From assembly GCA_012519985.1 (NCBI GenBank), contig JAAYPC010000262.1, positions 1 to 64,000 on the forward strand: a stretch of 64,000 bases of DNA. Reading direction: 5' to 3'. Under the pieces are notes generated by a model. The model was not told the DNA's origin. It did not search any database and saw only the letters and a program-made list of their open reading frames with translations. The position numbers and the translations under genes were made by a program. Origin of the DNA: Fibrobacter sp. GTDB lineage: Bacteria; Fibrobacterota; Chitinivibrionia; Chitinivibrionales; Chitinispirillaceae. Every line of letters starts with the position of its first letter. Within the stretch, counting starts at the first letter, position 1. Shown here one piece after another: positions 671 through 29,321 of the stretch.

Positions 671-3154
671 TCAACCGAGACGAAATTTATCTGTATTAAA
701 ATTCATTCTGCGTGCGAAATTAACCAGTTTAAGAAACAGATCCCTGGTTTCGCCGTCATCTTTTTTTTGAGCACCAAGCATCATTAATTTATCATACAAC
801 TGCTGTACCTTGGTTTTGAGAACCGGATGAAACATGTCTTCAAGCTTATGCTTGGAAACTGGAATGCTGAACCGGTCTACAAGATTAAGCAAATAACGGA
901 TCCGGTCACATTTTTCAACAGATAAGTTTTCCTGCAGAGCCTCAAGCTCATCCACAAGGATTTTTTCCAACACTTCTGCACCGCTACTGAGATCGATACT
1001 GACCTGAAAACGGTTCATCGTTCTGAACATCTCCAGAAGCTCAGAAAAGAGCTGATCCTCAAACCCAGGTGTAGCCACCTTCTTTATAGTGCTGTCCCAT
1101 TGATCCTGAAACACAAAAGAAAGGGGGGCAGTGCAATAGGACGGAAGAGGCTGATTAAGCCTGGAGAGAATATCCAACTCCCTTAGATGCTTATTTCGCC
1201 AGACACCAAATCTCTGATTGGTGTCTTTGGAGATTCTATGAAGAAAGTGACTGGTTATCTGCTGCTGCGAAGTCTGAAATATATCTGTCAGACTGAAAAC
1301 CTTGGCCCTCTTGTGACCCATCCAGGCTTCAGGCTGCTCTATAAATCCCTGCTCAAACTCATCACCAGGAATTATCCACCCGGTAATATCGGAATTTTTC
1401 CGCAATGCAACCAGAACAGCCCAAGTCCCCTCCTCTCCCGATAACTCATTCTCCAACTGTACCAGATACCCGCTAAATGCAGGAGAGTCGTTCTGAGAGG
1501 TCAGAACCTGCTGAAGTTTAACAGAGTATTCGTAAATATCAAATGAAGACAGTCTCTGTATTCCCAGGGTTTTAAGGATAGATGCAGTAAATGCCAGAAT
1601 CATCTGGTGATCTAAAAATGTCATTATATGCTGTTCGATCAGGGTACGTCCATTAATATTGGGCAGATTGCTTTTGGCACTCTCAAGATCTTTGAGAAAA
1701 TCATCCAAAATCTGGCTGCGCTTTGATTCTGGAGTACCCAATTGTAATGCCCTGCATGCATAAGCCAGATTCTGCACGGTTTCAATCCCACTTATATCTG
1801 AGAAAAACCATCCGCAGGAAGTAAATGAAAAAAGAGAATATTTCTGTGCCTCCAGCAACCGTTTGAAACTCAAAACCATCTGCCGATCAAGCGAACCGAT
1901 ACCGCACTGCTTCTCCAGAAACCATCTGAACTTTTTCCAGGAGCAGTTTTCAAAAGCAATATACCTGTCCCGTACCATCCATGGATCCACATTGAATTTG
2001 GAAAAAGCCAGCTCATATTCGGCATCGATTTTTTTCTGTAATTTTTCCAGAGCACTTCTTAATGGGGCACGCCACATCTGTTTCCAGGAACTATCACCAC
2101 CAGTCTTGCACCCACAATCCCTGGCCCAACGCCCAACCCCATGCGCACAGCTCCAGGCAGTCCCCTCCCCATTTGCATTTTTCAGAATAACTTCATAGCG
2201 TGGAGGATTTTTGGCCAGAAAATAACCAAAATTCACTGGAACGATATCCAGCTCAGGTGCCACATTCTTGAAAAAGTAAGCCAGACACATATCTCCAAAC
2301 GGTTTGTGATGGCCAAACGTTTCTCCATCTGTGGCAATTGTAACCAACTGATCGGTCTGGGAATTTTCTGCAAAACAGGACCTGATCCGATTCCCCAGAA
2401 TGTGAGCATCTGTAAGAAGCTGACCAAAACTTATTTCTCTGGATAACCCATCATCAAAAAAGAATGCATCCAGATAGGCTTTAGGATCTCGTTCCTTTGT
2501 ATAAATCCTGTATGCCATTCTGGTATCTATTATCTGCTGTGCCGTAGAAGTCCATTGGCCGTCGCTACCCATGGCTCTGAAACTCTCAACCTGGCTAGGT
2601 GCAAGTATGACAAACTTAATCTTTTCTTCTATAAGGCACTGAATCGTAACCGCATTTATTGCAGTCTCACCCAGCCAAATCCCTTCAGGATCTCTTCCGA
2701 AACGGTTCCTGAAGAATATTTTAGCCCAGCGGATCTGAGTCAACTGGTCACGCTTAGAAGAAAGCGGCATTATTATATGATTATAAACCTGAGCGATAGC
2801 ATTGCCATGCCCCTCAAGTCTTGCACAACTCTCCTGATCATCCCTGATAATCCGATTGGCGGTTGCCGGGTGATGTTTTTCCAGCCAGGAAAAAAGTGTA
2901 GGGCCAAAATTAAAGCTCATGTTGAGATAATTATTGTAAATATCCACAATCATCCCGTTGCCATCCAAAAGTCTCGAATAGGCGTTGGGTCTGTAGCATT
3001 GATCGTAGATCCGCTCATTCCAGTCATGATGAGGTGCAGCCGAAGGCTGTTTCTCAATGAGATTTATCCAGGGATTTTCACGGGGAGGTTGGTAAAAATG
3101 GCCATGAATCACCACATATTTTTTGCTTTTTCTGGATTGCTTATTGCCAGTCAT
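671..3154 (-). CDS. GH57 family glycoside hydrolase with DUF3536-type C-terminus
   Basis: Predicted alpha-glucan-acting enzyme of glycoside hydrolase family 57, a retaining family that includes amylases and glucanotransferases. The GH57 signature HGHFYQPPRENPW is at residues 17-29. The region expected to hold the nucleophile is GIWLGE (E163), and TDGETFGHH carries the likely acid/base (D276). The long C-terminal half matches the DUF3536-type arrangement. The track ORF starts 50 codons earlier, but ATG at 3154 has GGAAGG 5-6 nt upstream and puts the catalytic motif at the usual N-terminal position. No signal peptide is seen, so a cytoplasmic role in glycogen or maltodextrin metabolism is inferred. 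The start overlaps the 3' end of the upstream small gene, suggesting translational coupling. Confidence 0.85.
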   Translation of the reverse strand: MTGNKQSRKSKKYVVIHGHFYQPPRENPWINLIEKQPSAAPHHDWNERIYDQCYRPNAYSRLLDGNGMIVDIYNNYLNMSFNFGPTLFSWLEKHHPATANRIIRDDQESCARLEGHGNAIAQVYNHIIMPLSSKRDQLTQIRWAKIFFRNRFGRDPEGIWLGETAINAVTIQCLIEEKIKFVILAPSQVESFRAMGSDGQWTSTAQQIIDTRMAYRIYTKERDPKAYLDAFFFDDGLSREISFGQLLTDAHILGNRIRSCFAENSQTDQLVTIATDGETFGHHKPFGDMCLAYFFKNVAPELDIVPVNFGYFLAKNPPRYEVILKNANGEGTAWSCAHGVGRWARDCGCKTGGDSSWKQMWRAPLRSALEKLQKKIDAEYELAFSKFNVDPWMVRDRYIAFENCSWKKFRWFLEKQCGIGSLDRQMVLSFKRLLEAQKYSLFSFTSCGWFFSDISGIETVQNLAYACRALQLGTPESKRSQILDDFLKDLESAKSNLPNINGRTLIEQHIMTFLDHQMILAFTASILKTLGIQRLSSFDIYEYSVKLQQVLTSQNDSPAFSGYLVQLENELSGEEGTWAVLVALRKNSDITGWIIPGDEFEQGFIEQPEAWMGHKRAKVFSLTDIFQTSQQQITSHFLHRISKDTNQRFGVWRNKHLRELDILSRLNQPLPSYCTAPLSFVFQDQWDSTIKKVATPGFEDQLFSELLEMFRTMNRFQVSIDLSSGAEVLEKILVDELEALQENLSVEKCDRIRYLLNLVDRFSIPVSKHKLEDMFHPVLKTKVQQLYDKLMMLGAQKKDDGETRDLFLKLVNFARRMNFNTDKFRLG

Positions 3155-3386
3155 ATAACCTTCCGTCAGGGTAGGTAACTTTTTTTGATTCCAATCTTTT
3201 CTTGAGAATATCCAGACCTTGGGCAATAATATCGTTTCTAGAGTCATAAATATTTTCAAACCAGCACTCAACTTCGTTATTGATTCTGGTATAACATTTA
3301 TCACCTATCTTTTTGTCGCCAATCTGAATTTCGATAGTACTTTTCTCTCCATCGATTATCAAATTTTTGATCCATCGAATGCTCAT
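3141..3386 (-). CDS. Small hypothetical protein coupled to the GH57 gene
   Basis: An 81-residue soluble protein, not recognised. It is rich in charged residues and alternating strands (for example IIDGEKSTIEIQIGDKKIGD), suggesting a small beta-rich domain with a C-terminal helix. ATG at 3386 has AGGAAAGAG upstream. Its stop lies 14 nt inside the GH57 coding region, so the two genes are almost certainly co-translated. This coupling and the good Shine-Dalgarno argue that it is real rather than a shadow. A regulatory or substrate-binding role alongside the GH57 enzyme is possible but unproven. Confidence 0.6.
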   Translation of the reverse strand: MSIRWIKNLIIDGEKSTIEIQIGDKKIGDKCYTRINNEVECWFENIYDSRNDIIAQGLDILKKRLESKKVTYPDGRLYDWQ

Positions 3387-16201: not shown

Positions 16202-16246
16202 CACAGGGCGTTGCCCTGTGCTGAGCTAGGGCGCCCCTTCAGGGCT
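16202..16246. repeat. GC-rich palindromic interspersed repeat, copy 2 (inverted)
   Basis: CACAGGGCGTTGCCCTGTG followed by CTGAGCTAGGGCGCCCCTTC is the reverse-complement counterpart of 9988-10032, with a few substitutions, several of which keep the small hairpins paired. Confidence 0.6.
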
Positions 16247-23768: not shown

Positions 23769-25520
23769 TCATACATCGACACTTACTGGCAGTTTCTGAA
23801 GTACCTCACCAAGAAGACGTTTATTGAGATTTTTAAGCCAGTGGGACATATCTTCAGTAGACTCTATTGCTTCGATATGAGAGATGCTTTCAGCAGCTTC
23901 TGCAAAACTGATATTGGCAATCAACTCCTTAATCAAAGGAATACTGCGTGGAATCACACTGAATCTGCGCAACCCCAGACCAACAAGCAGCACTGTATGC
24001 AGAGGGTTTCCTGCCATTTCCCCGCAGATAGAGAGAGGCATTCCATTATCATTGGCGCACTTTATGGCATTCTGAATGATTCGCAGGAAAGCGGGTTCAA
24101 TAGGATTGTACAGATAGTTTACCTTTGCATTATTGCGGTCTGCAGCACTGAGATACTGAATGAGATCGTTAGTACCAACCGAAGCGAAATCGATCTCTTT
24201 CATGAATGTTTCCATTTCCATTATGGCCAGTGGAACCTCAAAAAGGACTCCACACTTAGGCATTTTCATACCTAAATTCATGGCTACCTGAGCGATAACT
24301 GCCTTAGCCTCCAACCACTCCTGCAAAGTGGTAACCATAGGCATCATTATAGAATAATCGTGGCCAACACCTGCCTTCATGATTGCAGTTATCTGAGTTT
24401 CAAAGATATCTCTTCTTTCCAGAAATATCCGTATAGCCCTCCAGCCCATAAATGGATTAAACTCCGCAGGCATATCAAAGAATTGAGGTACTTTATCTCC
24501 ACCGATATCCATAAGGCGGATTACACAGTGTTTCTGTTTTGTTTTCTCCAGAATTTTCTTGTAGTATTCAAATTGTGCCTCCTCTGAGGGCATCTCTTTT
24601 CTGTTCGACAGGAGGTACTCGGTGCGGACCAGTCCTATTCCATCAGCGCCGAAATCATTTGCGTCATTCACATCTTCTGGTAAGGAGATGTTTGCCAGAA
24701 CATCGATTTGAACCCCATCGGTGGTATAAACCGGCCTGCGCCACTTGGTTTTCAGCATCTCAAAGGCTTTTTCATCGAATGCCTGTCTTTTGTATCTGCT
24801 TACAACTGCAGAGGCCGGTCGCACATAAACGACTCCTTTTTCTGCATCAACCAGGATGTGGTCTCCAGGTCTGATATTTTCAGCAATGTTTCTGATTCCA
24901 GATACAACCGGAATAGAATAAGAACGGGCAAGGATTGCAGCGTGAGAAGTTTTTCCACCACTGGCAGTAACAACAGCCTGAATTTTGGATTTATCGTAAG
25001 AGAGAATATCTGTGGGTGTAAAAGTTCTAAGCACAACCAGAACAACCGGCTCCATGAAAGTTTTGGTTCTGCCATCATCCTGATAAAGATAGGAGATCAG
25101 TTTTTCGCAGATTTCTACCATATCACTACTTCGTTCTTTAAAGTAGGTAGTGCCGGCAGAATCAAAGCGCTTAATGAAATCATTGGAAACCAAGCGGATA
25201 GAAGACTCCAGATCGTAGAGTTTTGATGAAATGGTCTCTACAACCTGCCCTATAAAGGCAGGATCATCCAGAATATGTTCATAGATATTGAGTATGGAGA
25301 CATCAACGGTGGAAGATCCACCAAGATCAGTAATGTATTGCCGGTAGTCTTTTTTAGCCCGTTCCCTGATCTCGTTAAAACGCATGATCTCATCGCCAAC
25401 ATCCTGCCTTGAGATAGAAACGGTAGAAGTTTGTTGAACCGCTCTTCCTACAAAATAAGCAGACCCCATACCCCAGCCAGATACCACAGGTATGCCAGTT
25501 AATTTCGATTCTTTTTTCAT
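23769..25520 (-). CDS. ptsI: Phosphoenolpyruvate-protein phosphotransferase (PTS enzyme I)
   Basis: A 583-residue enzyme I that takes phosphate from PEP and passes it to HPr. The phospho-histidine motif GGKTSHAAILARS puts the active His at about 193, and the PEP-binding domain shows RLMDIGGDK, GWRAIR, SVGTNDLIQY and CGEMAGNP. It therefore looks catalytically complete. The track start is 32 codons too long: ATG at 25520 overlaps the glgP stop (ATGA) and gives the family N-terminus. No HPr or EII gene is in the window. Coupling to glgP recalls the known HPr-glycogen phosphorylase interaction of E. coli. Confidence 0.9.
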   Translation of the reverse strand: MKKESKLTGIPVVSGWGMGSAYFVGRAVQQTSTVSISRQDVGDEIMRFNEIRERAKKDYRQYITDLGGSSTVDVSILNIYEHILDDPAFIGQVVETISSKLYDLESSIRLVSNDFIKRFDSAGTTYFKERSSDMVEICEKLISYLYQDDGRTKTFMEPVVLVVLRTFTPTDILSYDKSKIQAVVTASGGKTSHAAILARSYSIPVVSGIRNIAENIRPGDHILVDAEKGVVYVRPASAVVSRYKRQAFDEKAFEMLKTKWRRPVYTTDGVQIDVLANISLPEDVNDANDFGADGIGLVRTEYLLSNRKEMPSEEAQFEYYKKILEKTKQKHCVIRLMDIGGDKVPQFFDMPAEFNPFMGWRAIRIFLERRDIFETQITAIMKAGVGHDYSIMMPMVTTLQEWLEAKAVIAQVAMNLGMKMPKCGVLFEVPLAIMEMETFMKEIDFASVGTNDLIQYLSAADRNNAKVNYLYNPIEPAFLRIIQNAIKCANDNGMPLSICGEMAGNPLHTVLLVGLGLRRFSVIPRSIPLIKELIANISFAEAAESISHIEAIESTEDMSHWLKNLNKRLLGEVLQKLPVSVDV

Positions 25521-27925
25521 ATCACTTTCCAGATTTCCCGCGCATATTCCAAAGTGGCTCTGTCCGAGGAGAAATACCCTGAACGTGCAATATTCAGAAG
25601 ACAAGCTTTGGACCACATTTGTTTATCAGCAAACAGTTGATCTATCGATTCCTGTTTCTTCACATAATCATCAAAATCAATCAGTACAAAATACCTGTCA
25701 TTATCACGTAAAGATGAGATCAGTGGATAGATTGTAGAGCCATCTGATAAAGAAGGTAAAAGACTTTCCAACAGTGAAAAAATGCTGGTTAAACGAGAAT
25801 CACTCTGCAGATATTCCTGAGGCCGGTAATCGTCAATATTGTCCAGCTCTTCAGAGCTCTTCCCAAAAAGAGAAATATTGTCCGAGCCAACTTTCTCTGC
25901 CAATTCCAGATTAGACCCACATCTGCTGGCAATTGTATAAGTACCATTAAAAGCAAATTTCATATTGAATGTGCCACCAGCTTCAAATGATGCGGTTGCA
26001 ATCTGCTCTGAAAGATCAGCAGATGGGAGAATTTTTTCAGCCCAGCTCATTCCAAAATTTGGAATAAACACGATCTGCATCTGTTTACTTGCTTCAGGAT
26101 CATTATTAACCAGATTTTTTGTAACATTAATAAGATGAATGACCTGTTTTGCCAGAAAATCGGACGGTGAAGCCTTCCCTGCAAACACATGAAGTCTTCT
26201 GCACTTTAAGGTTACTCCTGATTTAATCTGCAAGTATCTGTGCAGAATGTATAAGACATGCAAAACCTGACGTTTATAGGGATGAATCTTACCACTATGA
26301 ATATCAAACATAACCGAACAATCATCAACATTTGCCAGAGAAGCCTCATTAAGGCAGGAGGCTAAATGCTCTTTAGCCTGAAATTTAATTTTTTGAAGGG
26401 AGAGCTGATACTGCGAATCATCCGCAAATTTCTCCAGTTCCGCCAAAGCCAGAGGTTCTGTGATCCATCTTTGGCCAATAGCAGAGCAGATCAGCTCAGA
26501 TAACCTGGGATTAGCACACATTAACCAGCGACGGTGAGTTATCCCTGCAGTCTTGTTACAGAATTTTTCCGGAAAATGAGTAAAATAAGCCGGGAAAAGT
26601 CTTCGCTTTAAAATCTCAGACTGTTCCCTGGAAACCCCATTTACAGAAAATGAGCCCATTACGGCCAGATTGGCCAGACGAATCCTTTTAACTTCACCTT
26701 CTTCGATAAGAGACAAATCTCTTATTACATCTGCATCACCACTATAATTCTGCCGAATATCTTCCAGGTGTATCTGGTTTATATCAAAAAGTATCTGCAT
26801 GTGCCGAGGCAGGATCTGAGCCACTTTGTAGACTGGCCAGGCTTCAAGGTTTTCTTTATGAACGGCAGTGCTGGTGTAGGCAAAAACATTTTTGGTGATT
26901 TTCCAGGCTTGATCCCAGGAGAGATTTTCTTTGTCTATAAGAATTCTCATCAGCTCCGGAATAGCCAAAGCACAACGGCTCCCGTTTAACTGAATAACCA
27001 CTTTTTTATCCAGTTCGGTAATATCCTTGTTAGATATTTTGTAACGGCGAATTATATCCTGAAGTGCGGCACTGACAAAGAAAAACTGCTGTTTCATCCG
27101 CAGTTCAGTCACCCTGCGTATGTCTTCTTCCGGAAAAAGCACTTTGGTGATACGGCCAAGCTGAGACTTCTCCTCACAAGCCCTGACATAATCCCCGTGG
27201 TTGGCATAATCTGGAAGAAACTCTTCAGAAGCACGTGCGGACCACAATCGCAGAGTATTGACTATATTGTTGCGGTAGCCAGGTATAGGAACATCATAGG
27301 GTATTGCATGAACCTGCTCAGATGCTTTCCACTCATAAGGCCCCAGCGAACAGAGCGGATCTTTGGGGTAACACTCCCCCGCAAAACCTACACTGCAAGA
27401 ATACTCAGGTCTGACAATTTCCCAGGGATGTCCCCTATGCAGCCAATCGTAAGGACGTTCCACCTGAATTCCATTTTTGATGTCCTGCTGAAATTGGGCA
27501 TAATCATAGCGCAATCCATAGGCCATGGCAGGCAATCCCAAAGTAGCCAGAGATTCCAGCGAACAAACTGCCAGACGCCCCTTGCCCGCATACCCCAGCT
27601 CGAAATCATCTTCCTGTGCATAAAGCTCTTCTATAGAATAACCCAAAGAACGAACAGCGGTGGTAAATGGGGACTCAATGCCCAGGTTAACCATATTATG
27701 GCGCAGATTTTTGCCAAAAACGTACTCCATGGACAGGTAGTACACTCTCTTAACATTTTGCTCACGATAATTATTTGTAGTCTTGATCCAACTATCAACC
27801 AATTCACTTCTGACAGCATAAGCCAGAGCCATATATTTGTCATATGAAGTGGCAGAAGTGTCATCTTTGGCTAGAAAATAACGGAGATAACGGTAAAAAG
27901 CATCCTTGAGGTCCTTACTTTCCAT
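25517..27925 (-). CDS. glgP: Divergent glycogen/alpha-glucan phosphorylase homologue
   Basis: An 802-residue full-length member of the GT35 phosphorylase family. The fold is clear from VYYLSMEYVFGKNL near the N-terminus, KGRLAVCSLESLATLGLPA, ITHRRWL, FAGKASPSDF and the PLP-lysine segment GTFNMKF. By hand alignment several active-site stretches differ from classical enzymes: GNGGLGR is GYAGKGR, NDTHPA is NGSRCA, NHTVLPEA is STAVHKEN, and KRIHEYKR is GKIHPYKR. The PLP lysine stays, but catalysis may be altered or lost. ATG at 27925 has GGGAG upstream; the track's GTG start does not. It is coupled to ptsI by ATGA. Confidence 0.85.
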   Translation of the reverse strand: MESKDLKDAFYRYLRYFLAKDDTSATSYDKYMALAYAVRSELVDSWIKTTNNYREQNVKRVYYLSMEYVFGKNLRHNMVNLGIESPFTTAVRSLGYSIEELYAQEDDFELGYAGKGRLAVCSLESLATLGLPAMAYGLRYDYAQFQQDIKNGIQVERPYDWLHRGHPWEIVRPEYSCSVGFAGECYPKDPLCSLGPYEWKASEQVHAIPYDVPIPGYRNNIVNTLRLWSARASEEFLPDYANHGDYVRACEEKSQLGRITKVLFPEEDIRRVTELRMKQQFFFVSAALQDIIRRYKISNKDITELDKKVVIQLNGSRCALAIPELMRILIDKENLSWDQAWKITKNVFAYTSTAVHKENLEAWPVYKVAQILPRHMQILFDINQIHLEDIRQNYSGDADVIRDLSLIEEGEVKRIRLANLAVMGSFSVNGVSREQSEILKRRLFPAYFTHFPEKFCNKTAGITHRRWLMCANPRLSELICSAIGQRWITEPLALAELEKFADDSQYQLSLQKIKFQAKEHLASCLNEASLANVDDCSVMFDIHSGKIHPYKRQVLHVLYILHRYLQIKSGVTLKCRRLHVFAGKASPSDFLAKQVIHLINVTKNLVNNDPEASKQMQIVFIPNFGMSWAEKILPSADLSEQIATASFEAGGTFNMKFAFNGTYTIASRCGSNLELAEKVGSDNISLFGKSSEELDNIDDYRPQEYLQSDSRLTSIFSLLESLLPSLSDGSTIYPLISSLRDNDRYFVLIDFDDYVKKQESIDQLFADKQMWSKACLLNIARSGYFSSDRATLEYAREIWKVI

Positions 27926-28294
27926 ATTTCTCCCGAAATACACTCTGAAGTGTTTCGCACTCCCGGCGAAAAAGCTGAATATTAAATTCGATGTCTTTGT
28001 CTTCCGGAAAATCCTCCGGAATGGAGAGAAAGCATAAGTTTCGACAGTAACTTAAAATAAAAAAATAAAGCCGAAATCACCGTGCTTCGATGTAATTATA
28101 CATTCATATTTAATTACAGTGCACTATAAAATATATTCCCGCTTATAATGAGTTCAAAATAGTAAGCATATAATAATATGACACTTAAGGCTTATTTGCA
28201 GTTCTATTCAAGAACATTGGTCTAAAAAAATAAATCCATAAATAAGCTTGTTTTGTGCAGCTTACCAATTTATTTTAGACATTCAATAAATTCT
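27926..28294. other. Intergenic region between glgP and tRNA-Ser
   Basis: AT-rich DNA with no convincing gene. A dyad TGTAATTA (28091-28098) / TAATTACA (28111-28118) with a 12-bp gap could be an operator or hairpin. A short acidic open tail in another frame overlaps the glgP start but has no credible start codon. Confidence 0.4.
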
Positions 28295-28382
28295 GGAGGG
28301 GTGGCCGAGTCGGCTTAAGGCACAGGTTTGCTAAACCTGCGTAGGGGTAACCCTACCGGAGGTTCGAATCCTCTCCCCTCCG
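28295..28382 (+). tRNA. tRNA-Ser (anticodon GCT)
   Basis: The 88-nt class II tRNA has a 7-bp acceptor stem (GGAGGGG/CCCCTCC) and discriminator G. The D arm is GGCCGAGTCGGC-like, the anticodon stem-loop CAGGTTTGCTAAACCTG reads GCT, the variable arm is long (GTAGGGGTAACCCTAC), and the T arm is GAGGTTCGAATCCTC. CCA is not encoded. It reads AGC/AGU codons. Confidence 0.97.
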
Positions 28383-29321
28383 AATATTCTCTCTGTTCTC
28401 AACAGCCTTCGAAATAAGCTTTTCTACCAGCACTCTGCCATTTTTTCCATTTTCCAGACTGCCAAGAAGCCAGGAGGGTATACGTTTATATCCCCAAAAC
28501 GCCCCAGCAATAGCTCCAGTCATCGCGGCAATTGTATCGGTATCTCCTCCCATGGAAATAGCGAAAGTGAGGGAATCTTCAAATGATGACGGATTTCTAA
28601 GAAAAGAGTAGATTGCAGCAGAAACTGCATCCAGGGCATCAGCGCCATTTCCAACCATCCTCACACTCTCATGGGCAGAAGCCTGATGTTTGAGAGCCCT
28701 GGCAACATCACCCAGCTTGATCTTATAAGCGCTCTCGATCTCTAATTGATAAAAATGAGTAAACCAGTCTTCTGGTGAAACCTCGTTTAAAGCTAACAGC
28801 ACGGCATAGCCCTGCAACACTGCACCCGAAATTCCATAAGGATGAGTATGAGTGAGACTGGAGCAAAGTTTTACCTGTTCTGTAAAATCCTCTATTGATT
28901 TGATGGAGAAGAAAGCGCTTATCGGTGCAACTCTCATAGCTGCGCCATCACCAAAACTGCCCATTCCTCCATACAAACTTCTGGCAGCACTCTCTATGTG
29001 CTCTCCACTTCGCCACCGCTCAATCACCTCCAACATCCCTCCACTGTAATGCCGCCATGGAGAAAACCTCTTGAGAAAACGCTCCTTTAAAGATTCTTGA
29101 ATTATCTCCCCATTTTCGACCATCTCTTCCAAAACCGAAATGGTCATCTGGGTGTCATCAGTATATGTTACTGGAGGATGAGAGATAAAATAGTGAGAAT
29201 CAAGCGAAGGAATCAAATCCGGTCCATAGCCTTCAAAGGATGCTCCCGCAGCATCACCAATCCAGGTTCCATAAAGCAAACCCCGGAGTTTATCTTCAGA
29301 ATAGAGTAAATGTCTTTTCAT
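28353..29321 (-). CDS. ADP-ribosylglycohydrolase family protein
   Basis: A 322-residue hydrolase predicted to remove ADP-ribose from proteins or small molecules. Metal-binding motifs of the DraG/ARH family are present: the YGTWIGDAAG start, YTDDTQMT, and near the C-terminus GGDTDTIAAMTGAIAGA. GGAAAAG precedes the ATG. The last ten codons (RRGEDSNLR-stop) are simply the antisense of the tRNA-Ser gene, so the stop lies inside the tRNA by 30 nt. The natural end may have been replaced by run-in to the tRNA. No DraT-like partner is nearby. Confidence 0.87.
   Translation of the reverse strand: MKRHLLYSEDKLRGLLYGTWIGDAAGASFEGYGPDLIPSLDSHYFISHPPVTYTDDTQMTISVLEEMVENGEIIQESLKERFLKRFSPWRHYSGGMLEVIERWRSGEHIESAARSLYGGMGSFGDGAAMRVAPISAFFSIKSIEDFTEQVKLCSSLTHTHPYGISGAVLQGYAVLLALNEVSPEDWFTHFYQLEIESAYKIKLGDVARALKHQASAHESVRMVGNGADALDAVSAAIYSFLRNPSSFEDSLTFAISMGGDTDTIAAMTGAIAGAFWGYKRIPSWLLGSLENGKNGRVLVEKLISKAVENRENIRRGEDSNLR

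Follow-up and report, generated by a model that had tools for sequence, protein, structure and literature searches.

A glycogen phosphorylase homologue whose gene overlaps ptsI in the 64,000-nucleotide stretch analysed here (the window; its genome is denoted G000) belongs to a clade of paralogues in which the loss of phosphorolytic catalysis is well supported, as judged from the sequences. On balance, we lean slightly towards the explanation that a duplicated phosphorylase lost phosphorolysis in the ancestor of an order of Fibrobacterota and has been maintained in a non-catalytic role, as a partner or regulator of PTS Enzyme I (EI). The two genes and their overlap are located as follows:
25517..27925, minus strand: pseudo-glycogen phosphorylase (GT35 paralogue), 802 aa; open reading frame with ATG at 27925 and stop at 25519-25517
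23769..25520, minus strand: ptsI, PTS Enzyme I, 583 aa, with the motifs GGKTSHAAI, CGEM, GTNDL and GGDK intact
25517..25520, minus strand: ATGA overlap of the phosphorylase stop and the ptsI start, read from the sequence

The preliminary description of this DNA had proposed a full-length glycogen phosphorylase homologue with a retained fold, and profile and structure comparisons agree on this point. The 802-aa protein matched both PF00343 (812.6 bits, cut-off 27) and TIGR02093 (880.4 bits, cut-off 553) over the full length, and an AlphaFold2 model, generated from an input that included 29 orthologues, reached a pLDDT of 85.4 and a pTM of 0.87. Foldseek returned a TM score of 0.93 to rabbit GPb as well as to E. 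coli GlgP, with approximately 42% identity to the mammalian enzyme (rabbit GPb) in the structural match. The profile matches and the predicted fold place the protein in the GT35/PF00343 phosphorylase fold family. The low-confidence stretches of the model include residues 110-113, within the altered GYAG motif, and 265-271, in the 280s-loop region; a model of a member of family f7, built from five sequences only, gave a pLDDT of 44. A Shine-Dalgarno-like GGGAG is located immediately 5' of the ATG at 27925, and a promoter scan gave a result no better than that for shuffled sequences. A tRNA-Ser(gct) (window 28294-28383, plus strand) lies divergently just 5' of the gene.

Alignment with rabbit muscle GPb and 59 canonical phosphorylases unambiguously recovered the four changed motifs and the retained PLP lysine that had been described before, at the following positions (all by alignment):
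27575..27595, minus strand: residues 111-117, GYAGKGR replacing GNGGLGR (rabbit 132-138)
26969..26986, minus strand: residues 314-319, NGSRCA replacing NDTHP(A/S) (rabbit 338-343)
26849..26872, minus strand: residues 352-359, STAVHKEN replacing NHT(V/L)xPEA (rabbit 376-383)
26270..26293, minus strand: residues 545-552, GKIHPYKR replacing KRIHEYKR (rabbit 568-575)
25958..25960, minus strand: PLP lysine K656 (rabbit K680), present

The reported losses of the phosphate-binding Lys-Arg and of the HTVLPE histidine likewise held. Of the features of EC 2.4.1.1, the PLP Schiff-base lysine is present in the window protein; in the phosphate-binding set Lys568-Arg569 plus Lys574, G and K occupy 568/569 and K574 is kept, and the glucose/acceptor-site residues His377, Asn484, Asp339 and His341 are replaced by T, A, G and R, respectively. 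Further losses that had escaped the preliminary description are N484A, E572P, Y280F, T378A, S674G, G677F and Y613D (rabbit numbers), and K574, H571, Y573, E672 and T676, equally unmentioned there, are still present. Since the PLP lysine, K574, E672 and T676 remain, the window copy may conceivably have residual activity. The altered motifs are not attributable to chance, because 38 orthologues show the same changes again.

These orthologues are confined to one order. In a set of 61 genomes, nearly all members of the same order encoded two full-length phosphorylases, one canonical (approximately 1080-1140 bits) and one divergent (mostly 750-850 bits, and 390-575 in f7). Extending the search to 168 Fibrobacterota genomes, the divergent type was found in 39 of the 40 genomes of the order and in 0 of the 128 others; the sole order genome without it, G013, is 82% complete. 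From named records and taxonomy, the order comprises Chitinispirillales/Chitinispirillaceae and neighbours, a group from which Chitinispirillum alkaliphilum is a described isolate (PMC4814513). The divergent sequences were monophyletic with a support of 100/100 and separate from the canonical sequences included in the tree, the dividing branch amounting to 1.04 changes per column. Long internal branches were observed within the divergent clade, above all in f7. The tree has no fixed root, and the duplication may or may not predate the order.

The losses in the clade are concentrated at the catalytic site. The 59 canonical phosphorylases share 184 invariant positions, of which the divergent clade has lost 45; these comprise 24 of the 46 listed catalytic-site positions as compared to 21 of 138 elsewhere (p 1.9e-6; the 46-position list derives from established knowledge of rabbit GPb, not from coordinates). 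Several positions drift, including K568 (R/G/K/T/Q/M), R569 (K/R/P/T/S/N) and H377 (H/S/N/Y/T/F) as well as Y573, N484 and S674. Other replacements are fixed, namely L136K (K in 29/32 sequences outside f7), D339G (34/34 outside f7), P342C (32/34 outside f7), T378A (32/34), N376S, Y613D and E273G. The PLP lysine was found in all 32 non-f7 orthologues with sequence at that site, and it is retained, along with K574, E672 and T676, in most clade members; in three f7 members (L063, L064 and L065) it is replaced by Arg, and K574 is gone from 5/5 f7 sequences. Conversely, the AMP-site/dimer residues D42, W67, R193, Y196, D306, R309 and R310 (which are part of the dimer interface as well as of the AMP site, and were picked after inspection) persist in 97-100% of clade members, those of f7 included, as against a catalytic-site retention of 20% in f7. 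The glycogen-storage core N407, S429, E433 and K437 is also largely kept. For the pairs with unsaturated, computable dS, dN/dS was 0.04-0.15, indicating strong purifying selection.

A canonical GlgP coexists with the divergent copy in nearly all genomes of the clade. The 24 canonical proteins checked in the same genomes, those from f7 included, appear catalytically intact from their motif strings, with 20/24 exact in all six and 4/24 variant in one or more. Thus, the earlier suggestion of a pseudoenzyme is well supported by the clade-wide relaxation of the catalytic site, the loss of the PLP lysine in three members and the coexisting canonical enzyme in most relatives. The search for a second, canonical glgP that had been called for gave a divided answer, since one is present in most relatives and none was found in the 97% complete assembly of G000, where glycogen synthase GlgA is present alongside the missing GlgP. 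In G004, G005, G007, G008 and G010, ParB is encoded at a distance of 6-17 kb from canonical glgP; it was not found in G000 or G017. Because ParB is missing too, an unassembled segment is likelier than a true loss of glgP; the absence from G000 probably reflects an assembly gap near parAB, and true loss was not accepted.

The coupling to ptsI, which was not part of the preliminary description, is invariant. In 34/34 loci with downstream sequence, ptsI is the next gene on the same strand directly 3' of the divergent phosphorylase; four further loci end at a contig edge. The spacing is mostly -4 bp (ATGA), with a few gaps of up to ~145 bp, mainly in genus g10, and the ATGA overlap suggests probable translational coupling. 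No EI adjoined canonical GlgP at any of the canonical loci examined. The window EI carries the catalytic His and Cys motifs and the PEP-binding domain of a PTS Enzyme I. Among the paired EIs inspected, the phospho-His motif TSHAAI (TSHAVI in one) is kept, as are the CGE/DM cysteine, GTNDL, GGDK and NPFMGWR in all that reach that far. In genus g10, G029, G034 and G038, no EI other than the paired one was found, and the paired EI must therefore serve the general PTS there. HPr was detected in 39/41 genomes searched and EIIA in all; G006 gave nine HPr-family matches as compared to one to four in other genomes. In other Fibrobacterota, ptsI resides within mlaD-ptsH-ptsI or ptsH-ptsI clusters. G000 has a cluster of raiA-like, mlaD-like, ptsH and hom genes without ptsI (L124, contig C322), and in this genome ptsI has apparently moved away from its customary position next to mlaD-ptsH.

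The proposed explanation would operate as follows. Pseudo-phosphorylase and EI would be made together from one translationally coupled operon, with the phosphorylase dimer, the allosteric pocket (AMP/phosphate type) and some of the glycogen-storage site kept as sensory features. By binding EI or, in the manner of canonical E. coli GlgP, HPr, the pseudo-phosphorylase would tie PTS phosphoryl flow to the state of glycogen or of cellular energy. A physical contact with EI or HPr, the ligands and the direction of regulation are all inferred, and the operon linkage may reflect co-regulation only. The stricter version, that EI has in the pseudo-phosphorylase an obligate partner, structural or allosteric, through which glycogen or adenylate state gates the whole phosphorelay in Chitinispirillia-type Fibrobacterota, is put forward tentatively, as a possibility that we hold to be less probable than its opposite.

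It is unlikely, in our estimate, that the protein is instead a regulatory subunit of canonical GlgP, in a heterodimer or tetramer or as a glycogen tether, with the ptsI operon reflecting co-expression only. Such a role would agree with the retained dimer/AMP-site residues and storage core and with the canonical GlgP coexisting in most genomes. However, linkage to ptsI was seen at every locus with sequence and linkage to glgP never, and co-divergence with EI far exceeds that with canonical GlgP (partial correlations of 0.97 and 0.43, respectively). Mirror-tree distances of pseudo-phosphorylase and paired EI correlated with r 0.976, and with 0.966 as a partial correlation controlling for canonical GlgP; the co-divergence with EI was 0.79 without f7 (partial Mantel p 0.0002), and 0.60 over 12 loci with folE as additional control. 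Co-divergence of adjacent genes is partly shared history, and with regard to an EI partnership these values are suggestive.

Somewhat less probable still is a phosphorylase that remains active on a changed substrate or acceptor, an option also raised in the preliminary description. The fixed replacements L136K, D339G, P342C, Y613D, N376S and T378A are as expected of a rebuilt site, and most members keep the PLP lysine, K574, E672 and T676, but the K568/R569 pair, H377, Y573 and N484 vary freely and the three orthologues lacking the PLP lysine still have the ptsI operon. A different acceptor is specifically disfavoured because the phosphate-binding pair is conserved in no form in the clade. A degenerating pseudogene or assembly artefact, to which the long internal branches, particularly in f7, might point, is hardly credible given open frames of ~800 aa in all complete copies, occurrence in 39 genomes, sustained purifying selection and a confidently predicted fold.

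The favoured role as a partner or regulator of EI has a counterpart in E. coli, where the binding of HPr determines both the oligomeric state and the activity of GlgP (PMC11046441) and for which a 2026 structure shows the two proteins in a tetrameric GlgP-HPr complex (PDB 9s8k; see also 9s8b). Hence, a physical link between a phosphorylase-fold protein and a general PTS protein is established elsewhere. In E. coli, however, an active GlgP is under HPr control, whereas in Fibrobacterota an apparently non-catalytic paralogue is genetically tied to EI. The clade resembles canonical GlgP (GT35, PF00343, TIGR02093) in its full-length fold, the PLP lysine in most members and the allosteric/dimer and storage-site residues; unlike canonical GlgP, its glucose-, phosphate- and acceptor-site residues are lost or drifting, and its members coexist with a canonical copy and share an operon with ptsI. 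Likewise, as in the mlaD-ptsH-ptsI operons of other Fibrobacterota, ptsI is coupled to a 5' partner gene, but here the partner is the pseudo-phosphorylase and ptsH lies elsewhere (mlaD-ptsH-hom in G000). In the literature searched, we found no GT35 phosphorylase described as catalytically dead, and nothing relevant on an EI partner of this kind. Obligate pairing with EI, if true, would mean that an E. coli-type PTS-glycogen link can harden into a dedicated regulator, that EI has a type of partner absent from that literature, and that many 'glycogen phosphorylase' annotations in Fibrobacterota are wrong. The canonical copies in the same genomes are natural controls, and the pseudo-phosphorylase reading is therefore directly testable.

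Elsewhere in the window, an 877-aa GH57/DUF3536 protein (671-3304, minus strand) is another possible alpha-glucan enzyme, and an Rfam Acido-Lenti-1 RNA was matched at 16202-16246 (plus strand) with 39.4 bits against a gathering score of 37.
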